From: Marinoscillum sp.
GTDB taxonomy: Bacteria; Bacteroidota; Bacteroidia; Cytophagales; Cyclobacteriaceae
Reading direction: 5' to 3'
Length of the DNA: 38,421 nucleotides
Assembly: GCA_024305105.1 (NCBI GenBank)
Contig: JAMWZA010000039.1
Coordinates: 1-38,421, forward strand
Below the pieces are notes generated by a model. That model made no database searches. It was not told where the DNA came from and saw only the letters and a program-made list of their open reading frames with translations. The position numbers and the translations under genes are program-made. Shown piece by piece: positions 17,229-38,421 of the stretch (position 1 is its first letter; the number at the start of each line of letters is the position of its first letter).

Positions 17229-18482
17229 CTAAGAGACTATTAGCGTAGTAAAAGATTCAGGATTCAGATGTTTGCTGATCATCTCTGAGACTTCCACTGC
17301 TTTCATGCTTTGTAAAGTGTCGTAGTACTGGTACAGGTAGCCTTCATCCAAGCCATCCAGAGCAAGGCTCTTGATGGTGTTGTGTGAACTAAACGGCGAG
17401 TCAAATGACCCCAGAAATTTTCCTTTCATGTAGTTAGTAACCATGTTAAACTCCACTTCTGAAGGTGTTTCGTTACTAAGCCGTTGTACTTCTTTGGTGA
17501 TTTCTGATAAAGCAAGGTCTGTCTTTTCTTGTAAGACTTCTGATCCGATGTACCAGTAAGAGGCGTTTTGTAGGTGCAGGTTTGACGAATGAATACCATA
17601 AGTAAGTCCTTTCTCCTCTCGGATATTTTTCATCAACCTTGACCCAAAAAATCCTCCGAGTAATTCATTCGCAATTTTGAATTTATGAATATCCGGATGT
17701 TGCCGGTTGATCGAGTGTTTTCCTAAACGAATACTTGCCTGAGTACTGCCATCTTTATCAATCCGCTGAGATTCACCTTGAACTATTGCGGTAGACTGAC
17801 TGCTGGTCGGCAGTTGGAAGTCAATCGACTCGAATTGCTTTCTTATGAGGGTCAACTCCTGGTCGGTAACTCTGCCAGTGACAAACAAGACGGGTTTTGT
17901 TAGTAAAGCCTTTTTGAAACCTACGACCTCTTGAAGAGATGTCTGCTGCGCCAAATCTGGAGTCACTCTTCTTCCATACGGGTGTTGATCACCAAACAGG
18001 AGCTCTCGAAACTTCAGACTGGCAAAGACATTGTTTCTAGCCTCTTGCTGATGGATTTGTTGTGTTCGTATATCCTGAAGTATCTCAAATTCACTTTCTG
18101 GGAAGACGCTATCGGTCAACATCTCCATGAGTAGTTCTAATACCTCTGGAAAGAATCGGTTGAGCGCATAGAGCTTAATGCTCACATGATCCAAAGTAGG
18201 TGTTACTTCTAGGTGACTTCCATAGTAGTCAAATGTGGAAGCAATCTCCTCTGAGGAACGTTTGGAAGTGCCCTCAGTCAGCATCTTAAAGAGGTAGTAA
18301 GCGAGACCAGGAGCAGGTTCCTGATATCTGCCTACAGGAATGACCATTTCGAAAAGAATGACCTCTTGCTTTCCTTGATTCAGAATGTGAATATCAAGGT
18401 CTTTTGTTAATGATACTTTGTTTGTTGAAGGAAGATTTGGCCTTGCGATTGCTTCGGCGGCCGGCGCTATTGTTCTATCCAT
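17229..18482 (-). CDS. M16 family peptidase homologue lacking the zinc-binding motif
   Basis: This is a 417-aa insulinase/M16B-type protein with both homologous halves (N-terminal about 25-200, C-terminal about 210-400; NIREEKGLTYGIHSS near 305 is the typical second-half motif). At the place of the catalytic HxxEH (normally GLAHFLEHMLFKGT) it reads GLAYYLFKMLTEGT, so both His and the Glu are lost. It should be a non-catalytic partner, like the inactive subunit of M16 heterodimers; no active partner is in the window. The start ATG 18482 (MDRTIAPA) overlaps the porV stop by 8 nt (ATGGATAG), indicating translational coupling. A role in processing or quality control near T9SS is conjecture. Confidence 0.85.
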   Translation of the reverse strand: MDRTIAPAAEAIARPNLPSTNKVSLTKDLDIHILNQGKQEVILFEMVIPVGRYQEPAPGLAYYLFKMLTEGTSKRSSEEIASTFDYYGSHLEVTPTLDHVSIKLYALNRFFPEVLELLMEMLTDSVFPESEFEILQDIRTQQIHQQEARNNVFASLKFRELLFGDQHPYGRRVTPDLAQQTSLQEVVGFKKALLTKPVLFVTGRVTDQELTLIRKQFESIDFQLPTSSQSTAIVQGESQRIDKDGSTQASIRLGKHSINRQHPDIHKFKIANELLGGFFGSRLMKNIREEKGLTYGIHSSNLHLQNASYWYIGSEVLQEKTDLALSEITKEVQRLSNETPSEVEFNMVTNYMKGKFLGSFDSPFSSHNTIKSLALDGLDEGYLYQYYDTLQSMKAVEVSEMISKHLNPESFTTLIVS

Positions 18483-19695
18483 CAGTAGGGTTTTCATCTT
18501 TTGTGTCAAAGCTAAACACAAATGAAAGCCTTAAAGTGTCTCCCAAAGGATGGTTGTTATCCTGTGGTACGAGATAAGAAAAATCAACCCCGAAGACCTG
18601 ATATTTAAAGCCTAGCCCAGCCGTGAAGTACTTGCGATCGCCTTTGTTTGCGTGCTCATAGAAGTATCCTGCTCTTACTGCGAATACATCTCGGTACTTA
18701 TACTCAAGCCCGCTTGAGATCATGATTTCTTGCATCTCTTCACTGAAACCATTTGGGGCATCAGTAAACGAACCGAAAGCACCACTTAACAATGGCCTGT
18801 TAGGATCTTTACCCTTTAAAATCACCGGGTTTCCATTGGCGTCATTGACTACCTCACCGTTCTCATCCTCCTGATAAACAGGTGGAGTTGGTACTAGTAA
18901 CTTGTTGAAATCCAAAAGTATAGCGATACTGTTGTATGGATCTATGTTGGTTTTAAAGCCTGCACCTAACCTCAGGTTTGTTGGGATGAAATCTTCGTTG
19001 GAGTCGTTGCTATAGGTTACTTTCTGTCCAAAGTTGGACAAATGAGCACCAAGAGATAATTCGGCATTTTTACCGTTGAATATAAGCTCTTTGTTGTAAT
19101 AGAAACCAAGATCGATTGCCACACTTGTTCCTGCTTTGGCATCTGGCGCACCGGTGATGTTTCCAGAGAGGTTTGACCAGATGTAGCGAATAGTCCCTCC
19201 CAGACCAATATTTTCAGACAGTTTTCTGGAATAGGTCACATCGAATGCTGCTTCCCGCGGGTTTTCAAGACCAATGGCATTGGCATTGATATCTGTAAGT
19301 TGAATTTCACCTAAATCGAAATAGCGAACGGAAGCACCGATCGTTTGAATTCGATCAATTTTCTTATAAAAAGTCAGGTAGTTAAGGGACATGTCATCCA
19401 CGATATTTCCTAACCAGGGGGAGTATGAAAAGGAAAATCCCAGGTCATTATCTATAAAGGCTAATTTTCCGTTATTCCAATGAACACTATAGGCGTCAGG
19501 AGCACTTGCCACACCGGCATCTCCCATTGCAGCGCCTCTACTATCTGGAGCAAAGCCGACAAACGGAACTGCTACGGTTATAGGATTGCGATCACTTTCC
19601 TGACCAGACAGGAATTGAGCGTTAGATTGAATTGAAACCAAGAATGGAGCAACGAAAGCTAGAAACCAAAATGACTTCTTCAGATGTACGTTCAT
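18475..19695 (-). CDS. porV: Type IX secretion system outer-membrane protein PorV (LptO)
   Basis: This is a 406-aa FadL-like outer-membrane barrel with an N-terminal signal peptide (LAFVAPFLVSIQSNAQ). The mature N-terminus has the PorV pattern with VPFVGFAPDSRGAAMGDAGV and SVHWNNGKLAFI; later come VRYFDLGEIQLTD, RYIWSNLSG and the C-terminal FGVDFSYLVP. PorV shuttles T9SS substrates from the Sov translocon to the PorU sortase/attachment complex. It lies directly downstream of porU on the same strand, fitting that partnership. A TATCTTTG box just upstream suggests it may also have its own promoter. I chose the ATG at 19695 over the TTG one codon earlier. Confidence 0.93.
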   Translation of the reverse strand: MNVHLKKSFWFLAFVAPFLVSIQSNAQFLSGQESDRNPITVAVPFVGFAPDSRGAAMGDAGVASAPDAYSVHWNNGKLAFIDNDLGFSFSYSPWLGNIVDDMSLNYLTFYKKIDRIQTIGASVRYFDLGEIQLTDINANAIGLENPREAAFDVTYSRKLSENIGLGGTIRYIWSNLSGNITGAPDAKAGTSVAIDLGFYYNKELIFNGKNAELSLGAHLSNFGQKVTYSNDSNEDFIPTNLRLGAGFKTNIDPYNSIAILLDFNKLLVPTPPVYQEDENGEVVNDANGNPVILKGKDPNRPLLSGAFGSFTDAPNGFSEEMQEIMISSGLEYKYRDVFAVRAGYFYEHANKGDRKYFTAGLGFKYQVFGVDFSYLVPQDNNHPLGDTLRLSFVFSFDTKDENPTDG

Positions 19696-19716
19696 CAAGC
19701 AAAAATTTTAAGGTGG

Positions 19717-19724
19717 CAAAGATA
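19717..19724 (-). promoter_or_regulatory. Candidate -7 box for porV
   Basis: The minus strand reads TATCTTTG (TAnnTTTG), 21 nt before the porV ATG in the 30-nt gap after porU. A matching -33 TTG is not clear. It could allow porV to be expressed at a higher level than porU, in keeping with PorV being an abundant shuttle. Confidence 0.38.
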
Positions 19725-19725
19725 G

Positions 19726-22700
19726 TTAATTAATGATTATGAGCCTTTTAACGATTTCGTTTGAAGCTCCATCAATTGTGCTACTAACTTTCAACCGGTA
19801 CAAGTATATTCCTTTTTCTAAATCACTTCCCTGAAAAGTTGACAAACGTAAGGTTAGGTAGTCAATTTTCCTAGGACTACTGTCGATTGTGTAATCCCAT
19901 TGATTAACTAAGCGACCGTAGGTATTATACAACGCGAGAACCACTTCCAATTTCTCATCTTCCCTGTCATGCTCAAAGCTGAAGGTAGTGAGCCTGTTGC
20001 TGCTCACCGGGTTAGGGTAATTCAGTGCATTGTAAATCTTGAGTATCGGTTTATTTGATACATTAAACTCAACTACCGATTCTGTGAAATTATTGTGCGT
20101 GTCTGAGACTTTAAGTTTTGCCGTGTACTTTCCTGGCTCCAGATTCTGTAGTGGAAAAGTGACATAACCTTTTGAGAAATTATCTAATTCTGCAGTGTAG
20201 AATTCATTAACAGCGATGGGCTCTTCATCATTAAGCTGTAAGGTAATCCCCTGGCTGAAGCCATTACTCGAAATATTAATACCGCTCTCATCAGTAAGCT
20301 CGGCTATAAATAAGCTACTCGGCCCTACTACGCTTCCCGACTTAAAGTCAGGTTCATTTAGATAAAGGTTAACCTCAGGAGAAGCATCATCTGCCGATAC
20401 ATTGTCTGCAGTTCCGCCCAGGACAAAGTTTTTTGTGGAACCTTTCGCATCAATAAAATTTGTTGGGTCAGAAGCGTATATGCTCAGCTTGCCTTGTTGG
20501 TATTTGTAAGAGATGTTCTTTGGTAGAATTACTTCGGCGTTGTATTTACCGTTAACTACGGAGAACTCTCCTCTGTATAGTGTGTTTGTCTGTTCGGTAA
20601 ATGTGTATGGGTCACTTTCATCCCCTTTCGTAATTTTCGTCTGTGGGATGTCCCAGATAGTTATGGTTGCTGTACCATTGAAGTTGCTCACAACAGTACT
20701 GCCATTTTTGATTTCTCCAGAAATCGTCACTTTTTCGAGTGCGCTTAAAGTATCCAGTTGTCCAAACTGGTTCAAAGTGATGTCATACTCAGGGTAGTTT
20801 AGTCGGAGCATCGGATCGCCCAGCAATGCAAAATTTCGATTGATGGGTCCGCTGAGGCTTTCGTTTTTGGTGTTTTTAATGACATCTCCAAGTGTGGGAT
20901 ATCGCCCATTAGTTTTGGTGAAAAGATTCTCATGTAGAGCCACATTTACAGGCTCATTGGTGTGAGCGTAAACCGCCCTCGTGGTTGTAAGCAATGCGAT
21001 GGCACCTCCATTGTCGTGAGAAAGCAGCAGCTCCGCTCCAGACTCGCGGAGGGGATTGTCATATTTCCCAAATTCACAGGTGGCAGTAACGAAAAGTGGT
21101 AGTTTATGCCTGTTGCTTAAGTTCCTGATCACATCCTGATCTATTGCCAGTTCATTTAGTGAAGTCAGTTGAAACTCATTGCCATGTCCCATGTAATTAA
21201 ACATAAAAACACCATCTTTAATCGTATTCGTCACATCTTTGGTAACTGGTGAATTCGGTCCGGGATCTACATCCTGGTTGTATCGATCGAGGTAGAGCTT
21301 TTTGGCGCTGTAGTCAAAGAAGTCTTCATCAAGTATGCTGGAGAAGTGTTCAGCTTGACGCATGTGTTCATTTCTGTCACCGTCATCGGCCAGATAAGCT
21401 ACTTTTTGCTTCCAGGTTCCCAATGTTTGTTTGGCTGTCTTATAACGAATGATCTTATCCACCATATTCTTGGCTTCTTCCTTAGTTTTAGCTGTTAGCC
21501 TGCCAATTCCCAATTCTAAAGTATGGTCCGTATAACTGCCCTGTGAAGGACCACCGTCTCCATTAAATGTACCTTCACCCCAATCGCCTTCATCCACTTC
21601 CATAAACCCAAAGAAATCGTCAGAAGAGTGGCTATAAATGTTGTGAGCTGATTCTCTGGACTCGTATATCGGTACGTAATTGGTGTTGTTGGCTTTGTAG
21701 TCTTTGTAATCATAAGAGGCGTCACCAAACAGGAGGCCATATTTAAGATTGCCTCCATTTATGTAGCAATACCTGAAAAAATCTCTTATTGCAGTGATGT
21801 CCTGACTTCCTGAAGAGAATTCATTATAAATTTCCCTTGTCGTGGCAACGGCCACATTCATTTGATCATGGCTTTGATGGAAATCTGCCAGTCGTTTTGC
21901 CTGAGTTAGGAATTTTGGGTGTGTGACGATAATCGCTTCGGCATTTGCGAAAGACTTCAAGTTTTGATTGGCAACACGCTGTGGGGCTGTCGGAAGCGGA
22001 AGGTTCTTGCCATTAAACACGGCAAAGGCAGACTCTGTAGCGGTGTTGATAAAAGATGTTCCATTATTAATTGTTGGAATGCCAATAGCATTGAGCGGGT
22101 CAGTGACATCCCATACTTGCATTGCCGAAGGGAGCTTCCAATTATAGGTATCTCGAGGTGTGATTTTAATGACATGTTGATCTTGTAGAAAAGAAGATTC
22201 GATACCTAAAATGTAATAGTCTAGAAACCCTTTTGAGTTGCCTTCCGAGTTATTAAATCGAAGGCGCAAATCGACTTTTGTGTCACTAATCGTCGTGTTA
22301 AAAAGGCCCTCACCATACTTGTGTTTTCTTGAATAGGTGGCTCCGGAAACTGGATTTATTGGCACGGATCCTACCTCAGAGTTGTTAATGATGATATCGA
22401 AAGAGCTGGGGCCTTCAGAGTCTGAAGCAAATGACGTCCAGATAGTAACAGGGCCGGTTGCGTGAGGTGTTGGGTAGCTGAAATCCATGATGCTGTTGCT
22501 CTTGGTGACCCCATTGCTGAACCACTTTCGTCCAGAAGCTAGCTGATTGTATTCGTCTTTTTCATAAACTATGAGTTTCTGAAAACTGGTTTTGGTCGCT
22601 GCAGCGGCATTCGCTGGGTTTCTATCAGTTACTCGTTTTCCAGATTCCCCTCCATGTGTCAATAGAAAGTGGAGCGTGTCAGAATAAATGTTTTGCTCGT

Positions 22701-23067
22701 ATTCCAAAAGCCCAGCAGTATCAAAAACAAGCTTATGCGGTCCCTGGCTATAAAAAACCAGATAATCTCCTTGATCAAACTTGCCATCTTCGGTGCCAAC
22801 TCCTTTAATTGCTACTTGATTTGGGTCAAAGGATCTTTCCACAGAATTGGCCTGAGGTAGTGCTCCACGAAATCCATGATTGTACAATTTGATCGTTCTT
22901 GGGTCCACAGTTGATGGTACACCGGCCTCTTGAAGGTAATCATAATCGAGCTTATAAAGTCCTTCTGTGGTCGTTCCGAATTTTACCCAGTTGCCTTCAG
23001 AGAGCACACTTTGAGCGGTGATCATTGCTGACCATGATATCAAGGTTAGTGACAGGATGAATCTCAT
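19726..23067 (-). CDS. porU: Type IX secretion system sortase PorU
   Basis: This is a 1113-aa C25 (gingipain-like) cysteine-peptidase-fold protein with the signal peptide MRFILSLTLISWSAMITAQ. The catalytic His lies in FNYMGHGNE (about residue 628) and Cys in FVTATCEFG (about 664). Beta-rich domains follow, and a C-terminal NYPNPVSSNRLTTFSFEH...GIYLYR region of T9SS CTD type ends the protein. PorU cleaves the CTD of T9SS cargo and attaches it to A-LPS with PorV, PorQ and PorZ. The frame extends 20 codons upstream to 23127 into the end of pssA; I prefer the ATG at 23067 because it gives a clean signal peptide. porV follows. Confidence 0.93.
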   Translation of the reverse strand: MRFILSLTLISWSAMITAQSVLSEGNWVKFGTTTEGLYKLDYDYLQEAGVPSTVDPRTIKLYNHGFRGALPQANSVERSFDPNQVAIKGVGTEDGKFDQGDYLVFYSQGPHKLVFDTAGLLEYEQNIYSDTLHFLLTHGGESGKRVTDRNPANAAAATKTSFQKLIVYEKDEYNQLASGRKWFSNGVTKSNSIMDFSYPTPHATGPVTIWTSFASDSEGPSSFDIIINNSEVGSVPINPVSGATYSRKHKYGEGLFNTTISDTKVDLRLRFNNSEGNSKGFLDYYILGIESSFLQDQHVIKITPRDTYNWKLPSAMQVWDVTDPLNAIGIPTINNGTSFINTATESAFAVFNGKNLPLPTAPQRVANQNLKSFANAEAIIVTHPKFLTQAKRLADFHQSHDQMNVAVATTREIYNEFSSGSQDITAIRDFFRYCYINGGNLKYGLLFGDASYDYKDYKANNTNYVPIYESRESAHNIYSHSSDDFFGFMEVDEGDWGEGTFNGDGGPSQGSYTDHTLELGIGRLTAKTKEEAKNMVDKIIRYKTAKQTLGTWKQKVAYLADDGDRNEHMRQAEHFSSILDEDFFDYSAKKLYLDRYNQDVDPGPNSPVTKDVTNTIKDGVFMFNYMGHGNEFQLTSLNELAIDQDVIRNLSNRHKLPLFVTATCEFGKYDNPLRESGAELLLSHDNGGAIALLTTTRAVYAHTNEPVNVALHENLFTKTNGRYPTLGDVIKNTKNESLSGPINRNFALLGDPMLRLNYPEYDITLNQFGQLDTLSALEKVTISGEIKNGSTVVSNFNGTATITIWDIPQTKITKGDESDPYTFTEQTNTLYRGEFSVVNGKYNAEVILPKNISYKYQQGKLSIYASDPTNFIDAKGSTKNFVLGGTADNVSADDASPEVNLYLNEPDFKSGSVVGPSSLFIAELTDESGINISSNGFSQGITLQLNDEEPIAVNEFYTAELDNFSKGYVTFPLQNLEPGKYTAKLKVSDTHNNFTESVVEFNVSNKPILKIYNALNYPNPVSSNRLTTFSFEHDREDEKLEVVLALYNTYGRLVNQWDYTIDSSPRKIDYLTLRLSTFQGSDLEKGIYLYRLKVSSTIDGASNEIVKRLIIIN

Positions 23068-23104
23068 GTAACTCACAAACGATTCTTTCTTTTGATTATT
23101 TTCT

Positions 23105-23779
23105 CTAAACGTGCTTTTTGATAGCATAATTCCCGATCAATGAAAATACAATATATGTTGGGATCAAAAGTGGAAGCGCGTTGATTCGGAAAATGGCCAT
23201 TAAGGTGACCAAAGAGATAATCAACAGATATTTAAGGTAATTTTCTTTCCATGCGACTCCTTTAAATTTTAGTGCGATCATTGGAATATTAGCCACCAGG
23301 AGGAGGCTTGAGATAATCGTGATCGCAATCAAGATAGGAAGCGATAAGGGAAACGAGTCTGGTAAAAAACTCAGTGAGGTAATCAAAATGGTATTGGCAG
23401 GTGTGGGTACCCCTATGAACTGATCAGATTGACTCTCATCAATATTAAACTTTGCTAATCGAAGCGCAGAGAATGCAGCAATCAATAAACCCGCATATGG
23501 TATGTAATCATCCGGTGTGACTTCCGAAAGCATTCGATACATATACAATGATGGAACCAACCCAAAAGACACCATATCTGCCAGGGAGTCGAGCTCTTTC
23601 CCAATTGCCGACTGAACTTTAAGCAACCGCGCTGCAAAACCATCCAAAAAGTCAAACACACCTGAGATAAGCACAAAGTAAATCGCCTGATGAAAATCCC
23701 CGGAAATGATACTAATGCAGGCAATTCCACCTGTAATTAGGTTAAGGCAAGTCAGTGTGTTGGGGATGTGTTTAATCAT
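23105..23779 (-). CDS. pssA: CDP-diacylglycerol--serine O-phosphatidyltransferase
   Basis: This 224-aa integral membrane protein has several hydrophobic segments. The CDP-alcohol phosphotransferase signature D-x2-DG-x2-AR-x8-G-x3-D-x3-D is complete (FDFLDGFAAR...GKELDSLAD, about residues 42-68). It makes phosphatidylserine from CDP-DAG and serine, the precursor of phosphatidylethanolamine. The family subtype (PssA rather than PgsA) is inferred from length and the N-terminal IPNTLTCLNLITGG. Its ATG overlaps the stop of the MBL hydrolase by 4 nt (ATGA), so it is translated with that gene; porU begins 37 nt further on. Confidence 0.9.
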   Translation of the reverse strand: MIKHIPNTLTCLNLITGGIACISIISGDFHQAIYFVLISGVFDFLDGFAARLLKVQSAIGKELDSLADMVSFGLVPSLYMYRMLSEVTPDDYIPYAGLLIAAFSALRLAKFNIDESQSDQFIGVPTPANTILITSLSFLPDSFPLSLPILIAITIISSLLLVANIPMIALKFKGVAWKENYLKYLLIISLVTLMAIFRINALPLLIPTYIVFSLIGNYAIKKHV

Positions 23780-34769: not shown

Positions 34770-34937
34770 ATGCTTGAGTTGAATTTGGTCGAAGCAATTG
34801 AATCACTTACCGTAAAAGTGGCTGCTGTTTCCGAAAATGTCGGTTTTCTAACGATGACCCTTGATAAAATTGTTACCTTATTACATCAATTTTTAGCAAG
34901 TTGGATGAGCGAAAGTTCTCAATTTGACTTTATGTAG
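34770..34937 (+). CDS. Possible 55-aa small protein upstream of the SiaC-family gene
   Basis: An ATG-started frame of 55 codons ends with TAG 8 nt before the ATG of the DUF1987/SiaC gene, the spacing expected in an operon. The predicted peptide (MLELNLVEAIESLTVKVAAV at its start, ending QFDFM) is rich in Leu/Val/Ser with regularly placed charged residues and reads as one or two amphipathic helices. I recognise no family. It could also be a chance frame in a gap. I include it because it occupies most of an otherwise empty stretch in tight register with the next gene. Confidence 0.3.
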   Translation: MLELNLVEAIESLTVKVAAVSENVGFLTMTLDKIVTLLHQFLASWMSESSQFDFM

Positions 34938-34945
34938 TTACCGCC

Positions 34946-35326
34946 ATGATTGATTTACAGATTGAACCTACCCGAATTTCACCCTTCATTATGTTGGATT
35001 CAGCCAATGGGCTGATTGAATTAAAAGGAAAGAGCACACCTGAAAATTCCATACAGCTTTATCATCCTGTAATTAATAAAATCAAAGAGCTGTTCGCCAA
35101 TGTGCAGGGAGAGATTCAAGTGAATGTCTCCCTGGAGTATTTCAATACCAGTAGTAGTAAATGTATTTTTGACATGCTCAGGACGCTTAAGGGAATGCAA
35201 TCGTCAGAGCGTTCTGTCCACATCAACTGGTATTATGAAGAAGATGATGAGGACATGCTGGAAACGGGAGAAGATTATGAGGACATATTGGGCCTTCCGT
35301 TCAGCTACATTCCGATAGAATACTGA
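34946..35326 (+). CDS. SiaC family regulatory phosphoprotein (DUF1987), copy 1
   Basis: This is a 126-aa single-domain protein of the SiaC family. It has the family N-terminus (IEPTRISPFIMLD...G.IELKGKSTPENS), the phospho-site region LEYFNTSSSKCIFDML with Thr68 matching the position phosphorylated in Pseudomonas aeruginosa SiaC, and the acidic INWYYEEDDEDMLETGEDY signature (about 94-112). In Pseudomonas, SiaB phosphorylates SiaC and the SiaA PP2C phosphatase reverses this, which frees SiaC to activate the diguanylate cyclase SiaD. Here the gene is convergent with the H-NOX gene (2-nt gap). It is probably a substrate of the neighbouring phosphatase (inference). Confidence 0.88.
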   Translation: MIDLQIEPTRISPFIMLDSANGLIELKGKSTPENSIQLYHPVINKIKELFANVQGEIQVNVSLEYFNTSSSKCIFDMLRTLKGMQSSERSVHINWYYEEDDEDMLETGEDYEDILGLPFSYIPIEY

Positions 35327-35328
35327 GG

Positions 35329-35856
35329 TTATTGGAATCCCAATAATAGTGAATTATTACCAACCCGTTCAATTGAAGTTTCGCTATCAAATCTTTTATC
35401 AAGTCCTCTTAGCAACGATTCAAAGAGTTCGAATAATCCTCTTTCTGACTTATAGGTCATCAAAAGCCTTCCATCTTTTTGCCATTCATACGTAAATCTC
35501 GGCGGTTTGGCACCGGGTTTTTTACCGATTACAACCTGATGGATGTGGTCCAGCCCCACCAACATGTCTTTTGTAGATTGTGCTTTTTCGAAAAACTGCG
35601 GATACATTTTAGGTGCATAAGTCAGGCACCAATAGTCTCCAAACTGGTCAAAGAGCGTTTTGAGATCAATATTTAACGTTTCAGCACTCAACTGAAATAA
35701 TTTTATCGAATCTTCCTCATTGATGTCTTGGAGAATCTGTTGCCCGAATGAATGGCTTTTCTTTAAACCAACCGCTTGTTGACATTTCGCCCAGGCAGAA
35801 TCTCCGTAGTTTTCTTTGATGGTTGCTTCAAGGCAGTAATGAATAGTGCCTTTCAT
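35329..35856 (-). CDS. H-NOX haem/nitric-oxide sensor protein
   Basis: This is a 175-aa stand-alone H-NOX (HNOB) domain. The proximal haem ligand is His106 in GLDHIHQVVIG, followed by the usual PGAKPPRF. The haem-propionate motif Y-x-S-x-R is Y135-S137-R139 (TYKSERGL). FGDYWCLTYAPKMYPQFF (about 72-89) is also typical. Such proteins bind NO, and some O2, through ferrous haem and control a partner encoded nearby, commonly a histidine kinase or cyclic-di-GMP enzyme. Here the partner in the same unit is a SpoIIE/PP2C phosphatase, which ends 6 nt upstream. NO sensing controlling SiaC phosphorylation is inferred from this layout. No O2-type distal Tyr can be assigned by eye. Confidence 0.9.
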   Translation of the reverse strand: MKGTIHYCLEATIKENYGDSAWAKCQQAVGLKKSHSFGQQILQDINEEDSIKLFQLSAETLNIDLKTLFDQFGDYWCLTYAPKMYPQFFEKAQSTKDMLVGLDHIHQVVIGKKPGAKPPRFTYEWQKDGRLLMTYKSERGLFELFESLLRGLDKRFDSETSIERVGNNSLLLGFQ

Positions 35857-35862
35857 AAAAAA

Positions 35863-36954
35863 TCATGGTTTTAAATATAAAAAAATGATGTCGTCTGTTT
35901 GTGGAGCTTTACCCTTCCACTTATTTAATGGTATTTCTACGGTTTCTTTGCTTACCTCGTTGTTCCGTTCTCTTATCGGCTGAAGCATCCCTTTTACTTT
36001 CAGTTTTTTCCCGTCATGTCCTTGTTGGTCAGCCAGACCATCAGAACAGGTAAATATTGCATCATTCGAGTTAAGCTGAAGCGATCTTGTCCGAATGTAC
36101 TTGATTACTCGCTCAGGAGCAAATGACGAACTCTTCGTTTTAAATTTCTTGATTTTGTCATTTACCAAATACATGGATAGCCCATTACTGCTGTACTGCA
36201 AGGTCTTGGTTTTTTTGTGGTATTTCATAACCATGATCTCACAACCGATTCCATAGCCAATGTTAATGTCTTGCTCTTGAATATCATTTAGACTACTATG
36301 AAGCGCTTTTATGAGCAAATGAGGGGCAATTTCTGGATCGTAAACCTGATTGAGGATCGACATAACACTTACAGATCCCAGTGCTCCTTCTACAGAATGT
36401 CCGGTACAATCACCGATGATTAACCACTGATAATCTTTTGTAGATTTTGCCCAGTAGAAATCTCCACCAACTACGTCTTTAGGTTGATAGTAGAAGTAAT
36501 TTTCTGAGAAGGATTCCAGTGCTTTTGACATGCTTGGGAAGAGGAGGTTCTGAATTCGTTTTGCAGACTCCAGTTTTTCTTGTTCTTCTGATTTTTGCTT
36601 CAGCTCAGGTTCATTTTCTTCAAACGAGACGTCAATATCTGATAATAGGTACTGAATAAAAAAATGAAGCTTAGCGAAGCTGGTATTGTCGCTCAGAACA
36701 AAAAGCCAAACCTCTTCACTTATTTTGATGTAGTATAGGAACCTATCCTCAGCGTATTGATTGATGAAAAATTTGATTTTCTTATCTGGGTCCATACCCA
36801 AAAAATAAAGCCGCATGACCAGCCCTTCTACGTCCTCAGCGTCCAGGTCTGAACGATGCTGATATGCTTTGATTTCTCCATTGACGATAAATCCAATGTC
36901 CAGGATTTGATCAAAATTGCTTTCTAATTGATTAATGAATTGATTGGGTCTCAT
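35863..36954 (-). CDS. SpoIIE/PP2C-type Ser/Thr phosphatase, SiaA-like, with an N-terminal LC7-like region
   Basis: This is a 363-aa soluble protein. Residues 1-108 form an alpha/beta region with no transmembrane segment (QFINQLESNFDQILDIGFIV ... EEVWLFVLSDN), similar in layout to the neighbouring 121-aa protein and perhaps LC7/roadblock-like. A short charged helix (112-136) leads to the PP2C SpoIIE domain: GGDFYW (Asp165), IIGDCTGHS (Asp182), CSDGLAD (Asp305) and QTDDIIFLYL (Asp354/355). All metal-binding Asp are kept, so it should be active. Unlike Pseudomonas SiaA it lacks a membrane-sensor part, so input may come from the H-NOX protein. The start overlaps the previous gene by 23 nt. Confidence 0.88.
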   Translation of the reverse strand: MRPNQFINQLESNFDQILDIGFIVNGEIKAYQHRSDLDAEDVEGLVMRLYFLGMDPDKKIKFFINQYAEDRFLYYIKISEEVWLFVLSDNTSFAKLHFFIQYLLSDIDVSFEENEPELKQKSEEQEKLESAKRIQNLLFPSMSKALESFSENYFYYQPKDVVGGDFYWAKSTKDYQWLIIGDCTGHSVEGALGSVSVMSILNQVYDPEIAPHLLIKALHSSLNDIQEQDINIGYGIGCEIMVMKYHKKTKTLQYSSNGLSMYLVNDKIKKFKTKSSSFAPERVIKYIRTRSLQLNSNDAIFTCSDGLADQQGHDGKKLKVKGMLQPIRERNNEVSKETVEIPLNKWKGKAPQTDDIIFLYLKP

Positions 36955-37297
36955 AAAGTTTGTCTATCACAGTTTCAAATTCTTCTTTGAAGTTGGCGTA
37001 CATTTTATTGGCTAACTCCTTATTCGGATTATCTCCATCTACAAAAACCGAAATAAAATGAAGGTTTTTTACAAAGAAGATGATGATGGTTCCTTCATCT
37101 GTCACTATGAAGTTAAACGTTGTGTTAAATGCGTCATCAATAGACATCATAGGAATGTCTTTATATCTTTCTAAGGTGTCCGTATGTGCTCCATTTGCTT
37201 TTGTAATAGGCAACTCCATACTATGAAAGGTGACTCCTTGTGCATTGGGGTAGGAAAAAAGGAATTTTTCCAGAAGAATGTCTAATTCGAATTCCAT
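36932..37297 (-). CDS. Small LC7/roadblock-like protein (tentative)
   Basis: This is a 121-aa protein from the ATG at 37297 (MEFELDILLEKF). The frame is open 46 codons further upstream, but that part is hydrophobic/basic and reads as non-coding. Predicted pattern: N-terminal helix, strand (AQGVTFHSME), helix (SIDDAFNTTFNFIV), two strands (TIIIFFVKNLHFISVFVDGD) and a C-terminal amphipathic helix. This is the order of LC7/roadblock (longin-like) domains, which often dimerise and regulate GTPases or phosphatases. The assignment is weak. It overlaps the phosphatase gene by 23 nt and heads the unit LC7-like/phosphatase/H-NOX. Confidence 0.6.
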   Translation of the reverse strand: MEFELDILLEKFLFSYPNAQGVTFHSMELPITKANGAHTDTLERYKDIPMMSIDDAFNTTFNFIVTDEGTIIIFFVKNLHFISVFVDGDNPNKELANKMYANFKEEFETVIDKLYETQSIH

Positions 37298-37473
37298 ATA
37301 AGATTGATTAGTAATGTCAATGATTAATACCTGAAGTGGTAAAAATGTTTTGTTTAATAGAAATAAAAAATATTTAAACAAAAACTTAAAACAATCACAA
37401 AACCTTGACGTTTTACTCATTGCATGTACTAACATGTATTTTTTATTACCAACAACTTAAAGAGTAAGACAAA

Positions 37474-37899
37474 ATGGACCATTTAGGATTTGAGCCGATT
37501 TTTGTGAATGAATATGCAACTGGTTATTCCAGTCCGGAGAAAAAAATAATCGCTTGCGTTTTAAATAAAGATTACATTCCCATTACACGGTTTAAGGAAG
37601 TTTTTGAAATGTTGGGTGATGAAATCAAATCTGGATCGTACGAAAAGTTCGTGTTTGATAAGACGAAACTAAGAACCTTTCACCAACCTTCTATGAAGTG
37701 GTACTTCACCGAATGGAAGACCGAAATGATTAACTATGGAGTGTCCAAACATTTTAAAGTCTTACCTGAGCTTGACTATTTCAAGAAAGCAGTGGAAGCT
37801 GCAAGAAAACCTCTCCTGGCCAAATTTCCAAAAGAGATTCTTTCAAAACTTCGTATCGAGTACTTTGAGACCATAGAGGAAGCTGTAGAAGCTGAGTAA
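37474..37899 (+). CDS. STAS/SpoIIAA-like protein (tentative)
   Basis: This is a 141-aa soluble alpha/beta protein. A strand-rich N-terminal half (FEPIFVNEYATGYSSPEKK, IIACVLNKDYIPI, EKFVFDKTKLRTF) is followed by SMKWYFTEWKTEMINYGVSKHFKVLP, a helix-strand pattern like the core of STAS/SpoIIAA-like (CRAL-TRIO-like) domains seen in Bacteroidota. The conserved phospho-Ser of anti-sigma antagonists is not evident. Its stop shares one base with the ATG of the second SiaC-family gene, and it is divergent from the phosphatase unit, so it is likely a component of the same signalling set. I cannot assign a precise role. Confidence 0.65.
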   Translation: MDHLGFEPIFVNEYATGYSSPEKKIIACVLNKDYIPITRFKEVFEMLGDEIKSGSYEKFVFDKTKLRTFHQPSMKWYFTEWKTEMINYGVSKHFKVLPELDYFKKAVEAARKPLLAKFPKEILSKLRIEYFETIEEAVEAE

Positions 37900-38309
37900 T
37901 GATGATTGACCTATTAGTAGAACCAACCAACAATAGTCCACTAATTCAATTAGAATCAGATGAAGGGAAAATTATTATCAAAGGAAGATCAACTCCTGAG
38001 AGTTCAGTAGACCTTTATTTTCCGATAATTGAGAAAGTCAAGCGGCTCTTTTTTAGATCTAAAAGTATAGAAGTGGAGATTGCCCTTCAATATTTCAATA
38101 CGAGTAGTTCTAAGTGCTTGTTTGATTTGTTTAAAGTGCTCAAGGTATTAAAACGCAGAGGAGCGAACTTACGCATCAACTGGTACTATGACGAGGATGA
38201 TATGGATATGTTAGAAACGGGTGAGGATTATGCGGATATACTAATGTTGCCCTTTCATTTTCATCCGATGCTTGATGAATCGTATGCTGCAGAGGCTATG
38301 GTTTTTTAG
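37899..38309 (+). CDS. SiaC family regulatory phosphoprotein (DUF1987), copy 2
   Basis: This is a 136-aa paralogue of the protein at 34946. It shares the N-terminal MIDL.VEPT..SP, GRSTPESS, LQYFNTSSSKCLFDLF (Thr68 when counted from the first ATG, 37899; Thr67 from the second at 37902) and INWYYDEDDMDMLETGEDYADIL. It differs in a more basic middle (KRRGANLR) and a longer C-terminal tail (HPMLDESYAAEAMVF). It is translated with the STAS-like gene through a TAATG overlap. With the phospho-site intact it is likely a second switch protein for the SpoIIE phosphatase, possibly with a different output partner (inference). Confidence 0.88.
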   Translation: MMIDLLVEPTNNSPLIQLESDEGKIIIKGRSTPESSVDLYFPIIEKVKRLFFRSKSIEVEIALQYFNTSSSKCLFDLFKVLKVLKRRGANLRINWYYDEDDMDMLETGEDYADILMLPFHFHPMLDESYAAEAMVF

Positions 38310-38402: not shown

Positions 38403-38421
38403 AGTGCAAGGGTTTTAGCAG

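Follow-up and report, generated by a model that had tools for sequence, protein, structure and literature searches.

Does a haem-type nitric oxide (NO) sensor of the H-NOX family feed into a Ser/Thr partner switch in Marinoscillum sp., a member of the Cytophagales? The question is raised by a locus at one end of contig JAMWZA010000039.1 (C230; assembly GCA_024305105.1), where the gene of a stand-alone H-NOX protein lies directly behind that of a SpoIIE-type PP2C phosphatase, in a cassette that also encodes two SiaC-family proteins. The complete contig, 38,421 bases of a 5.76-Mb assembly that is 98% complete, is the window analyzed here. The explanation that we put forward, with a confidence slightly short of even, is that the locus consists of a cytosolic switch core resembling the SiaABC system of Pseudomonas aeruginosa, which was later coupled to H-NOX in this lineage. 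The features of the locus are the following.

34770 to 34939, plus strand: open reading frame (ORF) of 55 amino acids, which stops 6 bases ahead of SiaC1 and may be no gene
34946 to 35326, plus strand: SiaC1, SiaC-family (DUF1987) protein of 126 amino acids (Pfam SiaC, E 6.6e-38, above cut-off)
35329 to 35856, minus strand: H-NOX, stand-alone protein of 175 amino acids (Pfam HNOB, E 2e-33, above cut-off)
35863 to 36954, minus strand: SpoIIE/PP2C phosphatase of 363 amino acids (Pfam SpoIIE, E 3.4e-17, above cut-off)
36932 to 37297, minus strand: LC7-like small protein of 121 amino acids, with an ATG at 37297; adjoins the PP2C gene in five of five cassettes
37474 to 37899, plus strand: STAS-fold protein of 141 amino acids, assigned by structure prediction
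37899 to 38309, plus strand: SiaC2, 136 amino acids (Pfam SiaC, E 3e-35, above cut-off)

The gene content given by the original prediction was recovered in full between nucleotides 34946 and 38309, with Pfam matches for both SiaC proteins, HNOB and SpoIIE. Its start at 34770 is the first base of the 55-amino acid ORF, which among 21,813 ORFs of at least 30 amino acids from the fetched loci matched solely the copies of the window; the named genes start at 34946. The LC7-like, PP2C and H-NOX genes form, in this order, a tight run on the minus strand: the first 23 bases of PP2C lie within the LC7-like gene, whose frame is also open from 37435 as a longer ORF, and H-NOX is found 6 bases beyond the PP2C stop on the same strand, which agrees with its predicted place in the phosphatase gene run. 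These three genes may be co-transcribed. SiaC1 is on the opposite strand, facing H-NOX, and the genes coding for the STAS-like protein and SiaC2 are a plus-strand pair divergent from the LC7-like gene. Promoter and terminator scans of the locus gave no more signals than did shuffled sequences.

Comparison with homologous cassettes suggests that the core switch exists without H-NOX, which looks like an add-on. A search of 196 genomes of the family with the LC7-like protein gave eight matches at E ≤0.01, four of them strong (E ≤1.9e-18), which correspond to the window, a genome of the same genus (G003, JAUIAO010000015.1), Ekhidna sp. GM202BCY1 (G131, JACONI010000070.1) and G032. The STAS-like and SiaC genes diverge from the LC7-like and PP2C genes in all four. 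A scan of named genomes with a PP2C alignment (309 relatives) kept 79 loci; the same scan with a single PP2C sequence gave no result. The LC7-like gene was present in three of the 79 loci, those of G003 and Ekhidna sp. GM202BCY1 and one from Ekhidna sp. IRC4_bin_29, whose cassette is additional to the four mentioned above, and H-NOX matches were found in none of the 79. The named relatives belong to Ekhidna, which is placed in the Cytophagales in the NCBI taxonomy, and an order-level search of 390 genomes with the LC7-like protein returned the window and one weak match (E 4.6e-4). All five cassettes share the divergent order SiaC-STAS / LC7-PP2C, the phosphatases of the other four being 41-57% identical to that of the window, and H-NOX is present in one, the window. 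The cassettes of G003 and G032 were read far past both ends, the reading of G131 ends at the SiaC end, and that of IRC4_bin_29 ends 264 bases behind PP2C, with no H-NOX frame in that interval. As regards this cassette, the linkage check proposed in the original prediction went against it: the stretches read of four homologues have no H-NOX, two of them (G131 and IRC4_bin_29) being cut short at one end. For this absence, the idea that H-NOX is the cassette's core sensor was rejected. In G003 the genes that come next, 80 bases past PP2C, are those of exonuclease III, GcvT and phosphosulfolactate phosphatase, and the segment 34619-35862 of the window, which includes H-NOX and SiaC1, is absent. 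Since these are the genes that the window, too, has behind that segment, the segment is either an addition to the window or a loss from G003. SiaC2 is the positional counterpart of the lone SiaC of the other cassettes, and SiaC1, SiaC2 and the SiaC of G003 form a single clade (96/90).

The phosphatase includes the motifs GGDFYW, GDCTGH, SDG and TDD, so that all catalytic aspartates are present, as had been predicted, and residues D165, G181 to H186, S304 to G306 and T353 to D355 are invariant in an alignment with three homologues. A sequence search of the PDB gave a sole match, 6k4e, the PP2C domain of SiaA, which is also the best match of the predicted fold (E 4.5e-14; the model, built from four sequences, is moderate, with a mean predicted local distance difference test score, pLDDT, of 70). 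The protein can be considered a catalytic-Asp PP2C of the SiaA type. Its N-terminal 105 residues were modelled as a small α/β domain with the order α-β-β-α-β-β-β-α (in the four-sequence model, pLDDT averages of 57-82 for ten-residue blocks between residues 1 and 110), which we take to be that of roadblock/LC7 proteins; no roadblock structure was found among the 50 fold matches listed for the phosphatase. A SiaA-type membrane and HAMP sensor was not found, as no membrane segment was seen by eye and Pfam detected no HAMP domain. The NCBIfam SiaA model aligned at positions 412-653 of 658 only, which indicates that most of the SiaA N-terminal part is missing. The genome has seven SpoIIE matches in all, six besides the cassette phosphatase.

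Both SiaC1 and SiaC2 belong to the SiaC family (DUF1987) and have the predicted acceptor Thr68 within the sequence FNTSS. This stretch, with Asn67, Thr68 and Ser69, does not vary among the five SiaC proteins compared, which come from four cassettes. In an alignment of SiaC1 with SiaC of P. aeruginosa (6kko), NTSS is conserved. The SiaABC-like Ser/Thr partner switch proposed for this locus finds support in these residues and in the phosphatase, whose nearest relative among solved structures is SiaA. P. aeruginosa SiaC T68 is described as the site of SiaA and SiaB action (PMC7647112, PMC8457831). The likeness to SiaABCD would extend to the logic of the switch. The differences are several: SiaA has membrane segments and a HAMP domain (PMC7647112), while the window PP2C has a small N-terminal domain; the window adds the STAS-like protein, the LC7-like protein and a second SiaC; the kinase is encoded outside the locus; and the genome, 98% complete, has zero GGDEF matches (control genomes were positive in 8 of 14 cases). 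For lack of any such match, output through a SiaD-like GGDEF enzyme was rejected, and a GGDEF cyclase is unlikely as the SiaC partner. In G032 a single gene separates the cassette from a SiaB-type (DUF6272) gene, and on contig C122 of the Marinoscillum genome a SiaB-type gene is followed by a SiaC gene. In G032 a protein that appears by eye to be a coiled coil is encoded between SiaC and the SiaB-type gene (L166, 10084-10641). P. aeruginosa SiaC binds the helical stalk of SiaD, and because of this analogy the coiled-coil-like protein could be a SiaC partner.

The assignments of the two remaining core proteins are more modest. The predicted model of the STAS-like protein (mean pLDDT 93) resembles SpoIIAA, RsbS and SiaC at E 0.004-0.04. 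STAS-type structures occupy many of its top ranks with a template modelling (TM) score of about 0.5-0.7 by target length, and the first-ranked and sole match at E ≤0.001 is a nuclease. No Pfam match above cut-off was found, the Pfam STAS model gave none up to E 1, and a profile of the protein gave one chance-level match against PDB sequences; the label "STAS-like" of the original prediction holds for the predicted fold, with modest scores, and fails at the level of Pfam. Ser73, which belongs to the motif FHQP[ST]M, is close to the start of helix 2, and each of the 32 sequences listed, that of the window among them, has this motif. Of 196 family genomes, 94 encode a relative of the STAS-like protein at E 0.01 (for example L167, 6455-6901), and a paralogue in the Marinoscillum genome adjoins a flavin-reductase-like gene. 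The label "LC7-like" is plausible; as a family assignment it lacks support, the protein having no match in Pfam or NCBIfam and its profile none among PDB sequences, and this profile did not align with that of the PP2C N-terminal domain (four sequences each).

The H-NOX protein has an HNOB domain in which His106, Pro119 and the sequence Tyr135-x-Ser137-x-Arg139 are invariant in a six-sequence alignment. His106 is presumably the proximal haem ligand and YxSxR presumably has a haem-related role, so that the protein is by sequence a candidate haem sensor. The fifth residue past the YxSxR Arg, where the usual spacing would place the distal Tyr, is Leu; the absence of a distal Tyr is associated with sensing of NO rather than O2. 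The neighbourhoods of such genes were surveyed in three overlapping sets, with H-NOX in 18 of 59 relatives, 63 of 390 family genomes and 27 of 395 genomes from the phylum; the matches listed comprise 108 different ones. The DNA around 101 of these was retrieved, the remaining seven being family matches, and rows that shared the last 60 residues were merged (G138/G075 and two G744 copies), leaving 99 genes; two incomplete copies of the window H-NOX were counted apart. At least 5 kb were read on both flanks for 82 of the 101 rows, with kinase, phosphatase and SiaC models built from few seeds, which may miss some genes. At a distance of at most 300 bases and on the same strand, 64 of the 99 genes have a histidine kinase and two, those of the window and of G037, a SpoIIE phosphatase; the window is alone in having SiaC within 5 kb.

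A follow-up covered 11 genomes of the family of G037, picked because G037 has the pair. H-NOX is present in four of them and is followed by a SpoIIE phosphatase in two, G037 and G894, two species of the distant genus g33 (L118, 2934-4478, the same in L172, and L323, 1498-3038, where 9 and 8 bases separate the genes); no SpoIIE match was found in the stretch read around H-NOX in G856 and G831. Between G037 and G894 the H-NOX proteins are 57% and the PP2C proteins 47% identical, and these two are the only ORFs of at least 80 amino acids that match (E 1e-6) across 20.0 kb and 19.0 kb, respectively. The g33 pair is like that of the window in that H-NOX and a SpoIIE-type PP2C are adjacent on one strand. 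It differs in that H-NOX comes first, the N-terminus of PP2C is coiled-coil-like by eye and H-NOX belongs to another clade; no SiaC match was found in the stretches read around the pairs. As the window and G037 H-NOX proteins are in separate clades and share 22.6% identity, the two pairings look, from their sequences, to have arisen independently. A rough estimate predicts about 0.14-0.28 adjacent pairs per 99 genes by chance (taking seven SpoIIE matches and an assumed 5000 or so genes, alike in the other genomes), and two were observed.

We propose that the LC7-like protein, PP2C, the STAS-like protein and SiaC constitute a cytosolic partner switch related to SiaABC, in which PP2C would remove phosphate from SiaC Thr68 and perhaps also from Ser73 of the STAS-like protein. 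SiaB-type kinases from outside the locus, two of which this genome encodes, would counteract it. The phosphorylation state of SiaC would choose its binding partner. The H-NOX and second SiaC genes would have been gained in this lineage, or lost in relatives, and H-NOX, in its NO-bound or NO-free form, would modulate PP2C or the LC7-like partner, so that a switch which operates in relatives without H-NOX would here also receive a gas signal. Because of its gene position and the separate g33 pairing, control of PP2C is the most likely single function of H-NOX, short of proof.

Several results weigh against this proposal. The coupling is deduced solely from gene order, and the link between this H-NOX and PP2C is known from one genome, the other four cassettes having no H-NOX where they were read. 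H-NOX relatives are encoded elsewhere in the genus-mates G003, G002 and G004, and for the last two no SpoIIE match lies nearer to them than about 6 kb. The NCBIfam SiaA model scored 63.1 on PP2C (cut-off 700) and the SiaC equivalog model 87.5 and 77.7 on the two SiaC proteins (cut-off 150), all below cut-off. The locus has no SiaB gene, and a genome search for DUF6272 matched contigs C24 and C122 alone. A distinctly possible alternative, to which we give roughly a one-third share of belief, is that H-NOX and SiaC1 came to lie between the phosphatase and exonuclease genes through a chance insertion, and that H-NOX, sharing at most a transcript with PP2C, has its target elsewhere, for example an unlinked kinase. 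Besides the four cassettes in which H-NOX was not seen, the gene's phylogeny favours it: the window H-NOX forms a long branch that does not group with its genus-mates (G002, G003, G004 and G098), and falls in a clade of 13 genes, the window counted once (window, L066, L067, L068, L069, L070, L073, L077, L085, L087, L092, L123 and L124), whose neighbours vary, with no fixed partner; none of the 13 was seen to have a histidine kinase on the same strand at 300 bases or less. Within this clade G012 has a kinase 157 bases away on the opposite strand, and in G095 a response-regulator fragment, ended by the contig edge, lies 20 bases upstream and could be a piece of a larger kinase. Insertion by chance is harder to reconcile with the 6-base distance to the PP2C stop on the same strand and with the recurrence of the H-NOX/PP2C pairing, which is kept in genus g33.

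Within the same clade, the H-NOX relative of G003 (in the stretch 4583-12499 of L066) is near a response regulator, a PP2C-like gene with a degenerate motif (TDCHIE), a response-regulator/PP2C gene and a histidine kinase, and its other flank has genes that by eye resemble cytochrome oxidase accessory genes. In G003 contig C70 a diverged PP2C-like gene lies about 960 bases from H-NOX, with an opposite-strand response-regulator gene between them; this was not counted as a pair, the PP2C-like gene having no Pfam SpoIIE match.

We consider it improbable that the STAS-like protein is the main substrate of PP2C and that the SiaC proteins work with another SiaB/PP2C pair, encoded elsewhere. The Ser/Thr conserved at the supposed STAS phosphorylation site, the six further SpoIIE matches and the SiaB-type and SiaC genes of C122 are compatible with such an arrangement; SiaC adjoining STAS in five of five cassettes and the closeness of PP2C to SiaA among solved structures argue against it. 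Equally improbable is the claim of the original prediction that H-NOX replaces the membrane sensor of SiaA, so that the switch exists for reading NO: the gene layout and the lack of most of the SiaA N-terminal part speak for it, but the N-terminal PP2C domain aligns among three H-NOX-free cassettes and its retention there indicates that the switch probably has another input.

Outside the cassette, an inverted repeat near the contig end (38324-38402; TGCTGAAAAAC / GTTTTTCAGCA) is possibly the end of a mobile element at which the assembly broke; the reading stops there at 38421. Further upstream (18475-23127) a C25-peptidase gene adjoins a PorV gene, both of which we take to be type IX secretion parts.

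According to a review, H-NOX proteins act on histidine kinases and cyclic-di-GMP enzymes (PMC8738867). The protein of the window is like those in being stand-alone, in its haem-ligand residues and in having a same-strand signalling neighbour, and unlike them in that this neighbour is a Ser/Thr phosphatase. The RsbR stressosome of Vibrio brasiliensis similarly ties a haem gas sensor to STAS-protein signalling (PMC4976288); there a globin that senses O2 is fused to the STAS protein, while in the window a separate H-NOX is found beside a phosphatase. No wiring of H-NOX to SpoIIE/PP2C or to a partner switch was described in the titles and abstract openings of the papers listed by searches of openly licensed literature. 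Our broader proposal, more tentative than the one for this locus, is that in some Cytophagales H-NOX controls SpoIIE-family phosphatases, an arrangement gained independently at least twice, and that NO reaches the SiaC/STAS switch by a path that involves neither histidine kinases nor cyclic-di-GMP. If this is true, phosphatase output would be a further route of H-NOX signalling and an input signal for a SiaC-type switch. To our knowledge the 13-gene H-NOX clade, in which no co-directional kinase neighbour was seen, has had no known partner, and this locus supplies a candidate.

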